From Streptacidiphilus carbonis (GTDB lineage: Bacteria; Actinomycetota; Actinomycetes; Streptomycetales; Streptomycetaceae): 64,000 bases of DNA. The notes beneath the pieces are model-generated. The model had not been told where the DNA came from and did no database searches. It saw only the letters and a list, made by a program, of their open reading frames with translations. Location of the stretch: the NCBI RefSeq assembly GCF_000787775.1, contig NZ_BBPM01000043.1, forward strand, positions 1-64,000. The letters run 5' to 3'. Of the stretch, positions 13,490 through 46,819 are shown piece by piece. A program made the translations under genes and the position numbers. Numbering within the stretch: position 1 is the stretch's first letter; each line of letters starts with the position of its first letter.

Positions 13490-13594
13490 GGCGGGAGCCA
13501 CCCGTGATTGTGAAGGGGTTTTGGCGTGATCGGTACAGGACTGCGACAGACACGCGGGACCACTGCCCACCCTGATTGGCTAGAGTCACCTGCC

Positions 13595-13786
13595 ATGGCC
13601 GACTACCAGAACCCCCCCGTCGAGGACCCGTCCGCGAGCACGCAGATGTTCCGGGCCTTCGTCGACGACCCCCAGCCCAAGCCCGCCACCGCTGCCAGCG
13701 AGAGCAGCCGCACGGGTGTCATCGCGGTCGGCGTGATCGTCGTGCTGGCGATCATCGCCGGCGTGGTCTTCCTCGCAGCCAAGTAA
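13595..13786 (+). CDS. Small single-pass membrane protein
   Basis: A 63-residue protein: an acidic/polar N-terminus of about 40 residues (MADYQNPPVEDPS) followed by one membrane segment (GVIAVGVIVVLAIIAGVVFLA) and a single Lys at the end, giving an N-in or tail-anchored topology. Short proteins of this shape are common in streptomycetes but their role is unknown. A large hairpin terminator follows at 13829-13872. Confidence 0.55.
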   Translation: MADYQNPPVEDPSASTQMFRAFVDDPQPKPATAASESSRTGVIAVGVIVVLAIIAGVVFLAAK

Positions 13787-13828
13787 CCGCACCGCCGCCA
13801 GTCGCTCCACAGCCTGCTCCGCACCGCC

Positions 13829-13872
13829 CGCCGACCGGCGCCGCCCACCCCGCAGGGGCACGCCGGTCGGCG
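13829..13872 (+). terminator. Hairpin terminator
   Basis: CGCCGACCGGCG (13829-13840) and CGCCGGTCGGCG (13861-13872) are perfect reverse complements separated by 20 bases, 43 bases after the small membrane gene, and are likely to form a strong stem. No T tract follows. Confidence 0.55.
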
Positions 13873-13953
13873 GTGTGCTGTGCTGGGCCCTGCACGTGCG
13901 CTGACCGTGCAGCACGCGAACAGGGTGTACAGGGTGCAGGGGAGACAACCGAC

Positions 13954-14823
13954 GTGACCGAGTCGTCATCGAGTTCATCAGACCACCGCGACGACATCCG
14001 GGCCCGAAGCCTCGGCCTCAGGGCCGCCGCCAACGCCCGAGACCTCGGCGGCTACCGCACCGCGGACGGCCGCACCGTCCGCACCGGGGTCGCGCTGCGC
14101 AGCGACGCGCTGCACCGGCTCGCCGACGGGGACCTGGACGTGCTGACCGCGCTCGGGGTGCGCCAGGTGGTGGACCTGCGCGGGCTCAACGAGGTCCAGG
14201 AGAACGGCAGCGACCGGCTGCCGGAGGCCGTCCCGGCCGGCGCGGACGCTCCGGTGCGGCTGGTGCACCTGCCGGTGTACTCGGCCGAGCACGACATCTA
14301 CATCGCGCTGCGGGACGTGCTCGCGGGCCAGGACGCCGCCGCCCAGCACGCGCTGCTCGGCGACGGCGGCGCCGAGCGGATCATGACCGAGATGTACGGC
14401 TGGTTCGTCACCGACCCCGCGATCCGCGGGATGTTCGCCCGCACGGTCCGGCTGCTGGCGGACCCCGACGGCGTCCCGCTGCTCTTTCACTGCACGGCGG
14501 GCAAGGACCGCACCGGGTGGGTCGCGGCGATCGTGCTGACCGCGCTGGGGGTGGACCGCGAGACCGTCTACGAGGACTACCTGCTGACCAATGTGCGCTC
14601 GGCCGCACTGATCGAGCGGATCATGGAGGTGTTCGACGCCAGGGGCGTGATGTCGGACCCGACCCTGATGCTCCCGGTCATCCGCGCGGAGGCCGGCTAC
14701 CTCGACGCCGCGTTCGCCGCTGTCGCGGCGGGGTGGCCCGACTTCGACGCGTTCCTCGCCGAGGGGCTCGGTCTGGACGCCGCGACGCTGGCCGCCCTGC
14801 GGAAGAACCTGCTGGACGGCTGA
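13954..14823 (+). CDS. Tyrosine/serine phosphatase, DSP-like
   Basis: A 289-residue phosphatase of the IphP/MptpB-like group. The catalytic P-loop HCTAGKDRTG (Cys about residue 180, CX5R) is intact. The N-terminal NARDLGGYRT and the RSDAL segment are the other conserved marks of this family, which acts on phosphotyrosine, phosphoserine or phosphoinositides. There is no signal peptide, so it is cytoplasmic as read. GTG 13954 was chosen because GGGGAGA lies eight bases upstream and the upstream frame is low-complexity. It faces the SigF-type gene across a perfect inverted repeat. Confidence 0.8.
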   Translation: MTESSSSSSDHRDDIRARSLGLRAAANARDLGGYRTADGRTVRTGVALRSDALHRLADGDLDVLTALGVRQVVDLRGLNEVQENGSDRLPEAVPAGADAPVRLVHLPVYSAEHDIYIALRDVLAGQDAAAQHALLGDGGAERIMTEMYGWFVTDPAIRGMFARTVRLLADPDGVPLLFHCTAGKDRTGWVAAIVLTALGVDRETVYEDYLLTNVRSAALIERIMEVFDARGVMSDPTLMLPVIRAEAGYLDAAFAAVAAGWPDFDAFLAEGLGLDAATLAALRKNLLDG

Positions 14824-14870
14824 AGCGGGCTGAAGCGGTTCTGCAGCGTTGCAGGGTGCGGACCGTAGCG

Positions 14871-14968
14871 GGCTTGTCGCGCAGTTCCCCGCGCCCCTGG
14901 GGGGTGCAACTGACCCACTGTGGTTCAGTTGCAGTCCCATAGGGGCGCGGGGAACTGCGCGACAAGCC
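14871..14968. repeat. Convergent-gene palindrome, copy 1
   Basis: The 28-base arm 14871-14898 is the exact reverse complement of 14941-14968; both contain GCGCAGTTCCCCGCGCCCCT or its complement. Inside lies a second perfect stem (TGCAACTGA and TCAGTTGCA). It sits between the convergent phosphatase and sigma genes. Four degraded copies of the same element lie at 29086, 33951, 43996 and 46719, each again between convergent genes. A bidirectional terminator is the simplest role. Confidence 0.85.
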
Positions 14969-14997
14969 ATGCACACGCCGCACGTTTCGCAGTACCT

Positions 14998-15882
14998 TCA
15001 GCCCTCGGAGATCAAGCCCTCGCGCAACTGCGCCAGCGTCCGGGTCAGCAACCGCGACACATGCATCTGCGAGATGCCGATCTCCTCGCCGATCTGCGAC
15101 TGCGTCATGTTCCCGAAGAACCGCAGCATGATGATGCGACGCTCGCGGGCCGGCAGCCGTGCCAACAGCGGCTTGAGCGACTCGCGGTACTCGACGCCCT
15201 CCATCGCGGTGTCCTCGTAGCCGAGGCGTTCCGCCAGCGGGCCGTCGCCGTCCTCGTCGGTCGGGGTGGTGTCCAGGGAGCTCGCGGTGTACGCGTTGCC
15301 CACGGCGAGGCCCTCGACCACGTCCTCCTCGCTGACGCCCAGGCAGGCGGCCAGTTCGGCGACGGTGGGCGAGCGGTCCAGCTTCTGGGCCAGCTCGTCG
15401 CCGGCCCGGGTGAGCGAGAGCCGCAGCTCCTGGAGCCGGCGCGGAACCCGCACCGACCAGCTGGTGTCGCGGAAGAACCGCTTGATCTCGCCGATGATGG
15501 TCGGCATCGCGAAGGTCGGGAACTCGACACCGCGCTCGTTGTCGAACCGGTCGATGGCCTTGATCAGGCCGATCGTGCCGACCTGGATGATGTCCTCCAT
15601 CGGCTCGTTGCGGCTGCGGAAGCGGGCCGCGGCGTAGCGGACGAGCGGGAGGTTCAGCTCGATCAGGGTGTCCCGGACGTAGGGGTGGTCCGAGTGCTCG
15701 GGGGTCAGCGTGGCGAAGCGCTGGAACAGGCTGCGGGAGAGGGAGCGGGTGTCGAGCCCGGCCTCCGCCTCGATCACGGCCTCGGTGACTTCGACGTCCG
15801 TGCTCTCGACCTCTGCCGCCCGGGGGGCGGGGAGGACTGCTGCGTGGGAGTGAACCTCAGGGCTGCCCAGTTCAACGGACAC
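14998..15882 (-). CDS. SigB/SigF-family sigma factor
   Basis: A 294-residue sigma-70 group 3 factor of the SigB/F/G family, which in streptomycetes directs stress and development genes. Region 2 holds [28 protein letters not shown], with the core-binding and -10 reading helices; region 3 includes VPRRLQELR; region 4 ends in the HTH MTQSQIGEEIGISQMHVSR. The GTG start has GAGGGGG four bases upstream. The long acidic N-terminus (residues 1-45) is typical of the group. A paralog lies 200 bases upstream with the same start arrangement. No anti-sigma gene is adjacent. Confidence 0.88.
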   Translation of the reverse strand: MSVELGSPEVHSHAAVLPAPRAAEVESTDVEVTEAVIEAEAGLDTRSLSRSLFQRFATLTPEHSDHPYVRDTLIELNLPLVRYAAARFRSRNEPMEDIIQVGTIGLIKAIDRFDNERGVEFPTFAMPTIIGEIKRFFRDTSWSVRVPRRLQELRLSLTRAGDELAQKLDRSPTVAELAACLGVSEEDVVEGLAVGNAYTASSLDTTPTDEDGDGPLAERLGYEDTAMEGVEYRESLKPLLARLPARERRIIMLRFFGNMTQSQIGEEIGISQMHVSRLLTRTLAQLREGLISEG

Positions 15883-26152: not shown

Positions 26153-26791
26153 ATGCGGATTCATGTCCTGGACCACCCCCTGGTGGCGCACAAGCTCACC
26201 ACGCTGCGCGACGAGCGCACCGACTCGCCCACCTTCCGCCGCCTCGCGGACGAGCTGGTGACCCTGCTCGCCTACGAGGCGACCCGGGACGTGCGCACCG
26301 AGCCGGTGGAGGTCACCACGCCGGTCGCGGTCACCACCGGTACCCGGCTGAGCTACCCCCGGCCGCTGGTGGTGCCGATCCTGCGGGCCGGCCTGGGCAT
26401 GCTGGACGGGATGACCCGGCTGCTGCCCACCGCCGAGGTCGGCTTCCTGGGCATGGTGCGCAACGAGCAGACGCTGGAGGCCTCCACCTACGCGACCCGG
26501 ATGCCGGACGACCTCTCCGGTCGCCAGGTGTACCTGCTGGACCCGATGCTGGCCACCGGCGGGACCCTGGTCGCGGCGATCCGGCTGATGATCGAGCGCG
26601 GCGCCGACGACATCACCGCGATCTGCCTGCTGGCGGCCCCGGAGGGGGTGGCCGTGCTGGAGAAGGAACTGGTCGGCCTGCCGGTCACCATCGTGACGGC
26701 GGCGGTGGACGACCACCTCAACGAGCAGGGCTACATCGTCCCCGGCCTGGGCGACGCGGGCGACCGGCTCTACGGGACCGTGGGGGACTAG
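26153..26791 (+). CDS. upp: Uracil phosphoribosyltransferase
   Basis: A 212-residue enzyme of pyrimidine salvage making UMP from uracil and PRPP. The PRPP-binding loop [13 protein letters not shown], the early [14 protein letters not shown] and the C-terminal uracil site [16 protein letters not shown] are all present at the normal length. ATG 26153 starts [15 protein letters not shown], the standard family start. Followed by a hairpin terminator. Confidence 0.95.
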
Positions 26792-26854
26792 GAACCAAGG
26801 ACCAGGGGCTGGAGCTAGGGGCCCGGGGGCTCGGGGACCGGCTGAGAACCGGCT

Positions 26855-26881
26855 GCGCGCACGCCCTGGAGGCGTGCGCGC
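26855..26881 (+). terminator. Hairpin terminator, convergent pair
   Basis: GCGCGCACGCC (26855-26865) pairs perfectly with GGCGTGCGCGC (26871-26881) across a five-base loop. It lies between upp and the convergent LytR_C gene and can serve both directions. Confidence 0.7.
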
Positions 26882-26890
26882 GGCGCGGTG

Positions 26891-27622
26891 TCAGCAGTGC
26901 GCGGCGGTGGCGGACGGGCTGGGTCTGCTGGCCAGGGCGACCGCCTGGGCCGCCTGAGCCGGGGTGGCCAGCGCGGAGAAGCCGTTGCCGAGGACCAGGT
27001 CCACGGTGGTGTCGTTGCGCGTGTCGGTGACCGGGTGCGCGCCGCTGACCTCGGTCCCCAGCACGGTCATCATCGCGGCGCCGGCCTTGCCGCCGGTGAT
27101 CTGGGCGCTGCCGGCGACCTTGTTCTGCAGCGGGGCCGGGGCGTTGCCGATCTTCCCGATGGTGAAGCCGCGCTTCTTCAGCGCCGCCGCGGTCTGCCCG
27201 GCGAGCCCGACCCGGTCGGTCGCGTTGTAGACGTTGACCGTGACCGCGGCGGGCTTGGGGACGGCGCCCGGGACCAGCGCGGCGAAGGCGGCCACCGGGG
27301 CCGCAGCGGACGGTGAGCCGGGCGCGGCGGTCTGGTGGCCGGAGCCGGAAGGTGCGGGCGAGGCCGCGCCGGAGGCCTTGTCGGCCGATCCGGCCACCGT
27401 GGAGGTCCGGGTGCAGCCCGCCGCGCCCGCCTTCTTGTGGCCGCCGCCGAAGACGTCCACCAGTTGGAAGGCGCCGAAGCCCAGCACGGCCAGCACCACC
27501 ACCCCGGTGACGCTCTGCATGATGCGTCGGCGCCGGGTGTTGGGCCGGGCCAGCCGGGGATAGGTCGTACCGGTGACCCGGTACTGCTTTCCCTTGAGGC
27601 CAGGGGGAGTCAGCATGCTCAC
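26891..27622 (-). CDS. LytR C-terminal domain membrane protein
   Basis: A 243-residue protein with a cytoplasmic basic N-terminus (ARPNTRRRR), one membrane segment (about residues 35-57, MQSVTGVVVLAVLGFGAFQLV), a Ser/Ala/Pro-rich linker and an extracellular LytR_C domain (TVNVYNATDRVGLAGQTAAALKKRGF ... VDLVLGNGF). Stand-alone LytR_C proteins are thought to assist wall polymer ligation by LCP enzymes, but the domain has no assigned catalysis. A Cys near residue 70 and one at the very end may form a disulfide. Confidence 0.8.
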   Translation of the reverse strand: MSMLTPPGLKGKQYRVTGTTYPRLARPNTRRRRIMQSVTGVVVLAVLGFGAFQLVDVFGGGHKKAGAAGCTRTSTVAGSADKASGAASPAPSGSGHQTAAPGSPSAAAPVAAFAALVPGAVPKPAAVTVNVYNATDRVGLAGQTAAALKKRGFTIGKIGNAPAPLQNKVAGSAQITGGKAGAAMMTVLGTEVSGAHPVTDTRNDTTVDLVLGNGFSALATPAQAAQAVALASRPSPSATAAHC

Positions 27623-29085: not shown

Positions 29086-29174
29086 GGCTTGTCGCGCAGT
29101 TCGCCACGCCCGTGCGCAGGTGCTACGCACCCAGCGCGGTTCCGTAGCAGCCCCCAGGGGCGCGGGGGCCGTGC
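29086..29174. repeat. Convergent-gene palindrome, copy 2
   Basis: A degraded copy of the element at 14871: GGCTTGTCGCGCAGTTCG on the left, AGGGGCGCGGGGGCCGTG on the right, with TGCTACGCACCCA and GGTTCCGTAGCAG forming the inner stem. Sits between the convergent GTPase gene and corA. Confidence 0.65.
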
Positions 29175-33950: not shown

Positions 33951-34046
33951 GGTTGGCCGCGCAGTTCCCCGCGCCCCCCGGGGGCTGCAACTGACCCATG
34001 GTGGGCAAGTTGCAGCTACCCAGGGGCGCGGGGTGCGCGACTAACC
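33951..34046. repeat. Convergent-gene palindrome, copy 3
   Basis: GGTTGGCCGCGCAGTTCCCC on the left and GGGGCGCGGGGTGCGCG with CTAACC on the right, with TGCAACTGACCCA and AAGTTGCAG inside. Close to copy 1, with the flanking words GCGGACCGTAGCGGG also present. Between the convergent ECF sigma and STAS genes. Confidence 0.75.
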
Positions 34047-43995: not shown

Positions 43996-44096
43996 GGGCC
44001 GGTCGCGCTGTTCCCCGCGCCCCTGGACCCTGCGACCGGCCCACGGTGCGTCAGTTGCAGCCCCAGCGGAGGCGCGGGGAACTGCGCGACCAGCCC
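43996..44096. repeat. Convergent-gene palindrome, copy 4
   Basis: Left GGGCCGGTCGCGCTGTTCCC and right GGCGCGGGGAACTGCGCG with CCAGCCC, inner TGCGACCGGCCCA and TCAGTTGCAG. It lies between the convergent membrane gene and the MerR gene. Confidence 0.7.
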
Positions 44097-46718: not shown

Positions 46719-46819
46719 CCGGCTCGGCGCGCAGTTCCCCGCGCCCCTGGGTGGCTGCGACTGGCCCACCGTGGTTCCGTTGCAGCCTCCAGAGGCGCGG
46801 GGACCGGGCGGTCAACCGG
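46719..46819. repeat. Convergent-gene palindrome, copy 5
   Basis: Left CCGGCTCGGCGCGCAGTTCC and GCGCCCCTGG; right GAGGCGCGGGGACCGGG and GTCAACCGG, with inner TGCGACTGGCCCA and CCGTTGCAG. Between the convergent double hydrolase and the single-pass membrane gene. Confidence 0.7.

Follow-up and report, generated by a model that had tools for sequence, protein, structure and literature searches.

A dispersed family of long palindromes at gene 3' ends in Streptacidiphilus carbonis and its relatives: candidate recruited transcript 3'-end hairpins

What is a long and exact palindrome doing between two convergent genes, and why do recognizable relatives of it recur at other junctions of the same window, i.e. 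the whole stretch of 64,000 nt of Streptacidiphilus carbonis DNA analysed here? We have compared the elements of the window with each other, with the remainder of the genome and with related genomes, and weighed the possible functional explanations.

The palindrome and its relatives in the window

The initial annotation had described an element with exact 28-base arms and a second inner stem, together with degraded copies at 29086, 33951, 43996 and 46719, all five being located between convergent genes. A direct comparison confirmed this description (Table 1). The arms 14871-14898 (GGCTTGTCGCGCAGTTCCCCGCGCCCCT) and 14941-14968 are reverse complements with zero mismatches, and the RNA of 14861-14978 was predicted to fold with -100.3 kcal/mol (z -11.9). 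The 20-mer GCGCAGTTCCCCGCGCCCCT was recovered at 14879, and with 0-3 mismatches at the four other sites: 29094 (3 mismatches), 33959 (1), 44005 (1) and 46729 (0). Among the five copies, right arms with at most two mismatches remain only at 14941 and 44068, and only the copies at 14871 and 33951 have the flank GCGGACCGTAGCGGG without a mismatch. Three of the degraded copies fold with z-scores of -6.3 (33951), -6.6 (43996) and -4.9 (46719). The fold of the 29086 copy does not rise above chance (z +0.2) and this copy is therefore no longer a better-than-chance hairpin. The convergent location of all five was supported by both the gene caller and Pfam, the flanking pairs being, in order, tyrosine phosphatase/sigma factor, ATP-binding/CorA, sigma factor/STAS, short genes/MerR and hydrolase/unknown.

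Table 1. Coordinates of the palindrome, its relatives in the window and the adjacent genes
Feature	Position	Strand	Remarks
Best-preserved element	14871..14968		Exact 28-nt inverted arms, 42-nt interior
Left core arm GCGCAGTTCCCCGCGCCCCT	14879..14898	+	Family signature
Right core arm	14941..14960	-	Exact reverse complement of left core
Inner stem TGCAACTGA/TCAGTTGCA	14905-14913 / 14925-14933		9 bp; typical interior of own clade
Left outer tip TGCGGACCGTAGCG	14857..14870		Type A
Right outer tip ATGCACACGCCGCA	14969..14982		Type B on minus strand; no complementarity to left tip
Degraded copy	29086..29167		Only one of the five common to both close relatives at the orthologous junction
Degraded copy	33951..34045		Inner stem intact
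Degraded copy	43996..44095		Both arms kept
Degraded copy (46719 site)	46721..46802
Left convergent gene, tyrosine phosphatase (Y_phosphatase3)	13576..14823	+	Pfam
Right convergent gene, sigma-70 family factor	14998..15882	-	Pfam

The arm motif, allowing two mismatches, has 374 matches in the 8.46 Mb draft genome against 5 for a reversed-pattern control, and chance is therefore excluded. None of the five window elements matched an Rfam covariance model (E<=1). Elsewhere in the window, 26390-26484 (+) weakly matched the Mycobacterium sRNA Ms_AS-1 (28.1 bits against a gathering score of 37 bits).

The family element is composed of two half-units that face each other, with arms of about 45 nt per half-unit. 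Each half-unit consists, from the outside inward, of an outer tip, CTTGTC or CTGGTC, the core and, in the clade of S. carbonis, TGCAAC near the centre. The outer tip reads TGCGG followed by either ACCGTAG or CGTGTGC and then NTGG; GTAG is internal in type A tips and absent from type B tips, and unlike tips (A with B) were combined in 30 of 47 typed copies (p=0.08). The facing halves give cores of 70-73 or 79-83 nt, and rarely of 42 nt. The core itself is nearly invariant among 83 palindromic copies. Pairing within copies exceeded that of between-copy shuffles, with z-scores of 2.2 for the core, 4.0 for the adjacent 9 nt and 5.4 for the outer 21 nt, where the gain for the core is small because the core arms hardly vary. 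Arm changes are matched at a copy that is orthologous between the genomes G280 and G446. Arms could also have come to match if one had served as the template for the repair of the other.

Placement relative to gene 3' ends

The placement was analysed over 2.05 Mb of the own genome, a sample in which four contigs were picked because they had matches and the others were not. Genes were called with a purpose-written caller, which Pfam bore out for the majority of the genes that flank the window elements. The 73 elements comprised 42 in convergent, 25 in tandem and none in divergent gaps, besides 5 inside called genes and 1 at an edge. Intergenic length predicts a distribution of 10/35/22 (convergent/tandem/divergent; chi-square 124, p about 1e-27), and the convergent class alone holds 42 of the 67 intergenic copies where 10 were expected (p=1e-18). 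The count by junction class that was proposed in the initial annotation thus left the preference for convergent junctions standing, and its argument against neutral spread was borne out. Contigs that were chosen regardless of matches (C130-C139) contained 25 convergent, 15 tandem and no divergent copies. Two of the in-gene copies reside in a single contig stretch ridden with gaps and C-runs, and the others are sites with 2-3 mismatches. Along the chromosome the copies are not over-dispersed (40-kb bins, mean 1.08, variance 1.15).

Although the preference is strong, a convergent location without exception proved too strong a claim for the genome: about 37% of the copies lie between tandem genes, and a strict convergent-only rule was rejected on account of the 25 tandem copies in 2.05 Mb. 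Twenty-two of these 25 are closer to the upstream stop codon, and all but two of the tandem-gap copies are situated 6-67 nt past it. Since the tandem copies nearly all follow an upstream stop, the rule is the 3' end of a gene. The suggested bidirectional character therefore fits the convergent subset but does not extend to the tandem copies, almost all of which directly follow the upstream stop.

The rule does not account for the whole pattern, as the convergent enrichment persists against a null of available gene 3' ends (gaps of at least 60 nt; p=4e-6). Of the convergent gaps that measure 60 nt or more, about a quarter hold a family copy (42 against 174). Strong hairpins outside the family display the same but a weaker bias (58/87/14 convergent/tandem/divergent), the convergent share of the family being significantly higher (Fisher p=0.0004). 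Placement at gene 3' ends, with a convergent excess beyond that of other hairpins, is thus the observed rule, and selection would be a plausible cause of it. The pattern recurs at the loci of five named Streptacidiphilus species (45 convergent, 32 tandem, 1 divergent). On PGAP-annotated Streptomyces plasmids the six distinct loci, classified by inspection, were 2 convergent, 4 tandem and 0 divergent. The first 200 kb of genome G292 contain zero copies, so the pattern could not be replicated there.

Distribution, architecture and turnover

Of the 295 genomes sampled from the order, 175 contain the exact 19-mer, and the number of arms per genome ranges from 0 to 988. Its carriers belong to five genera of one family, and it was missing from all 15 genomes that represent two other families. 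The palindrome family is patchy and, within this sample, confined to one bacterial family. Within Streptacidiphilus, arm counts are 252-293 in the own genome and in G277 and G304, its two close relatives, and 40-240 in seven other genomes. Exact arms number 0-1 in a further four genomes (G296, G302, G306 and G299), where three mismatches give 36-43 against 13-26 in the control. In a tree of a single gene, the sigma factor, this copy-empty group branches as the sister of the own clade (moderate support, 80/79), with the seven genomes of intermediate count outside both. In contig C1 of G304 (5.84 Mb) no exact 21-mer arm occurs in 1-749000 and many copies occur beyond, which may reflect chromosome arm versus core.

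The orientation of the half-units revealed a clear division between clades. For exact arms and gap lengths of 16-46 and 50-80 nt, arms-inward palindromes number 61, 70 and 77 in the three genomes of the own clade, which have no inside-out ones, whereas the seven-species clade contains no arms-inward palindromes and 59, 35, 11, 25, 4, 12 and 2 inside-out ones (p about 1e-104 when taken as counts, the copies not being independent). A few imperfect inside-out copies are present in the own genome. The inside-out copies fold strongly as well (z -13.0 for a copy in G297). Those of Streptacidiphilus clade B (L138 etc.) have a conserved centre with GGCCATCCGCAC, unlike the centre of the own clade.

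Other architectures were found outside the own clade. The arms-inward elements of genome G266 number 32, and by visual count 27 of them have an interior with a run of four or more A or T; the single element that was folded has an inner hairpin with UUUUU after it. In Streptomyces copies the arms enclose AAAAGC-hairpin-GCTTTT. Two loci of Streptomyces G293 (L277 and L280) carry the arrays ++++---- and ++++++++--, with plus arms on the left and minus arms on the right; these half-unit arrays look as though nesting or tandem duplication had taken place to either side of the centre.

A comparison of orthologous junctions showed extensive turnover. The 29094 copy is common to the own genome and both close relatives. 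The gap at the 33951 junction measures 139 nt here versus 43 and 19 nt in two relatives, and that at the 46719 junction 196 nt versus 23 and 27 nt. At the phosphatase/sigma junction most congeners in which both genes were found have a GC-rich hairpin, with differing sequences: unrelated GC hairpins in G277 and G304 and an inside-out family copy in G297. More generally, the family is absent at most orthologous junctions, where other hairpins or almost no gap is found. A +++- array in Streptomyces G280 corresponds to single +- copies in relatives at 94% and 92% adjacent-gene identity; the outer arms are conserved and the interiors differ. The proposal of a recruited, dispersed family is supported by two observations, namely that for most of the window copies the two close relatives have none at the corresponding junction, and that copy number ranges from 0 to hundreds between related genomes. 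The window also holds a hairpin outside the family (26791-26891) in a convergent gap of 100 nt versus 36 and 14 nt in relatives, so terminator gain is not limited to the family.

Proposed function, spread and alternatives

We consider it probable, at roughly 0.7, that the family represents recruited hairpins at transcript 3' ends, acting as a terminator and/or a 3' barrier, and that it spreads as a non-autonomous repeat with no RAYT transposase. Such a role appears the best explanation because of the placement after stop codons, the lack of divergent copies, the replacement by other hairpins and the T-tailed inner hairpins. RNA polymerase that proceeds past the stop codon would transcribe the palindrome, upon which the long GC-rich stem would form in the RNA a few tens of nt after the stop, and end transcription and/or mark and protect the RNA 3' end. 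Owing to its palindromic sequence, a single copy could serve both genes at a convergent junction, where it would also limit antisense read-through. New copies would replace or supply the hairpin at a gene 3' end and later be degraded or lost.

In the own clade the element does not correspond to a canonical intrinsic terminator (GC hairpin plus U-tract): the 10 nt past the core arm contain on average 0.28 T versus 1.41 by genome composition. It does agree with the U-less (I-shaped) terminators of actinobacteria, described in PMC8269248 and PMC12288462 as long GC stems without a U-tract within about 50-70 nt of the stop, in having a stable stem soon after the stop. The latter are defined by structure alone and have unrelated sequences, whereas the family has one conserved, dispersed sequence. 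In GC-rich actinobacteria most 3' ends have no U-tract, which leaves the mode of transcription termination there unsettled. Whether the actinobacterial polymerase terminates without a U-tract is disputed, with both views cited in PMC12288462, and U-lacking 3' ends were found to be weaker in S. avermitilis (PMC8780764); self-termination by a U-less stem being disputed, termination at the family elements is something we infer. The available part of PMC8269248 lists 55 bidirectional 3' end positions in Streptomyces clavuligerus and mentions no repeat family with them.

A possible though doubtful sub-case of the 3'-end role is that of a protector, with Rho or distal sites terminating transcription and exonucleases trimming the mRNA back to the hairpin. 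The lack of a U-tract in the own clade would suit this, as would the palindromic stem-loops seen as short stable decay intermediates in S. coelicolor (PMC4681348) and the Rho-type ends that are thought to be common in Streptomyces (PMC12207403). However, a need for both transcripts to stop at the element would account more readily for the convergent bias, and other genomes place a T-tailed hairpin within the same arms.

A pure terminator needs a stem only and not the near-identical sequence observed, which counts against the 3'-end role as a full account. In fact, copying as a repeat is indicated by identity beyond the need of the stem, by the patchy copy number and by the lineage-specific compound forms. 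The copied unit would be one half-unit, i.e. the outer tip, GGCTTGTC, GCGCAGTTCCCCGCGCCCCT and the inner stem. It is unlikely, however, that the family is just a selfish REPIN- or MITE-like repeat that transposes, is located at 3' ends because insertions into genes and promoters were purged, and terminates transcription incidentally. The near-identical core in 83 copies, the range of 0 to about 990 arms per genome, the lineage-specific compound forms, arrays such as ++++----, and presence/absence at junctions speak for it, but purging should fill gaps by length or by available 3' ends, and the convergent excess goes beyond the latter (p=4e-6). A Y1 (RAYT) transposase is absent from the own genome and from 16 of 20 other genomes checked, thus from most copy-rich ones, and the four Y1 loci examined have no flanking arms; a RAYT-driven REPIN was therefore rejected as the general explanation. 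Inverted arms are present as in a MITE, and no target-site duplication was seen in intergenic flanks that are too diverged to read any. Phage-borne spread was rejected, there being no phage matches, as was plasmid-borne spread, given only 12 Streptomyces plasmid records and no sign of a vehicle.

The likeness to REP, BIME and REPIN elements is nevertheless clear: in both cases a single half-unit underlies hundreds of extragenic palindromes that are dispersed as inverted doublets and arrays. Most REP-type repeats, too, are near gene 3' ends, in gaps that are convergent or unidirectional (PMC3733652, PMC3116915). The family differs from them in the missing RAYT and in its arms of about 45 nt. 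REP units bear an unpaired GTAG or CGTC tag at one end, and the family apparently lacks a terminal unpaired GTAG on both half-units; the reported hosts of GTAG REPs do not include Actinobacteria. In view of the missing RAYT we do not class the family as REPIN, though it appears to behave like REP-type repeats that were recruited as 3'-end hairpins. One may tentatively go further and regard the half-unit as a portable 3'-end signal with its own non-RAYT spreading machinery, used in opposite polarity in two clades and around canonical terminators elsewhere; the elements would then be terminator cassettes that colonise gene 3' ends and replace existing terminators.

Very improbable is a binding site for a nucleoid, gyrase-like, replication or segregation protein that tolerates 3'-end locations only and for which the hairpin is secondary: the 20-nt core is conserved far beyond the need of pairing and shared by several genera, with a half-unit polarity that differs by clade, but four Streptacidiphilus genomes and 120 of the 295 sampled genomes lack the family, so that it has no general housekeeping role, and the T-tailed hairpins within some copies point to transcription.

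In a search limited to open-access papers, no description of the palindrome family turned up. Its hundreds of near-identical copies, with junctions that have or lack one and two polarities in one genus, offer a set of replicates provided by nature. Term-seq data that already exist for Streptomyces could be superimposed on the copies as a test of U-less termination, and pairs of junctions with and without a copy reveal the gain and replacement of terminators. If a non-RAYT copying enzyme were found, it would represent a new route for the spread of bacterial intergenic palindromes.

Two further systems invite comparison. Streptomycetes are not known to be naturally competent in the manner that involves DNA uptake sequences. 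Like the family, the uptake sequences of Neisseria and Haemophilus are repeated motifs that occur as inverted pairs in intergenic stem-loops and terminators (PMC1590033); the family differs in being nearly absent from inside genes. The type I-E CRISPR system differs in its spacer arrays, which the family does not have. The arm at 14879-14898 shares the 13-mer AGTTCCCCGCGCC with the E. coli type I-E repeat, an overlap that is probably a coincidence.
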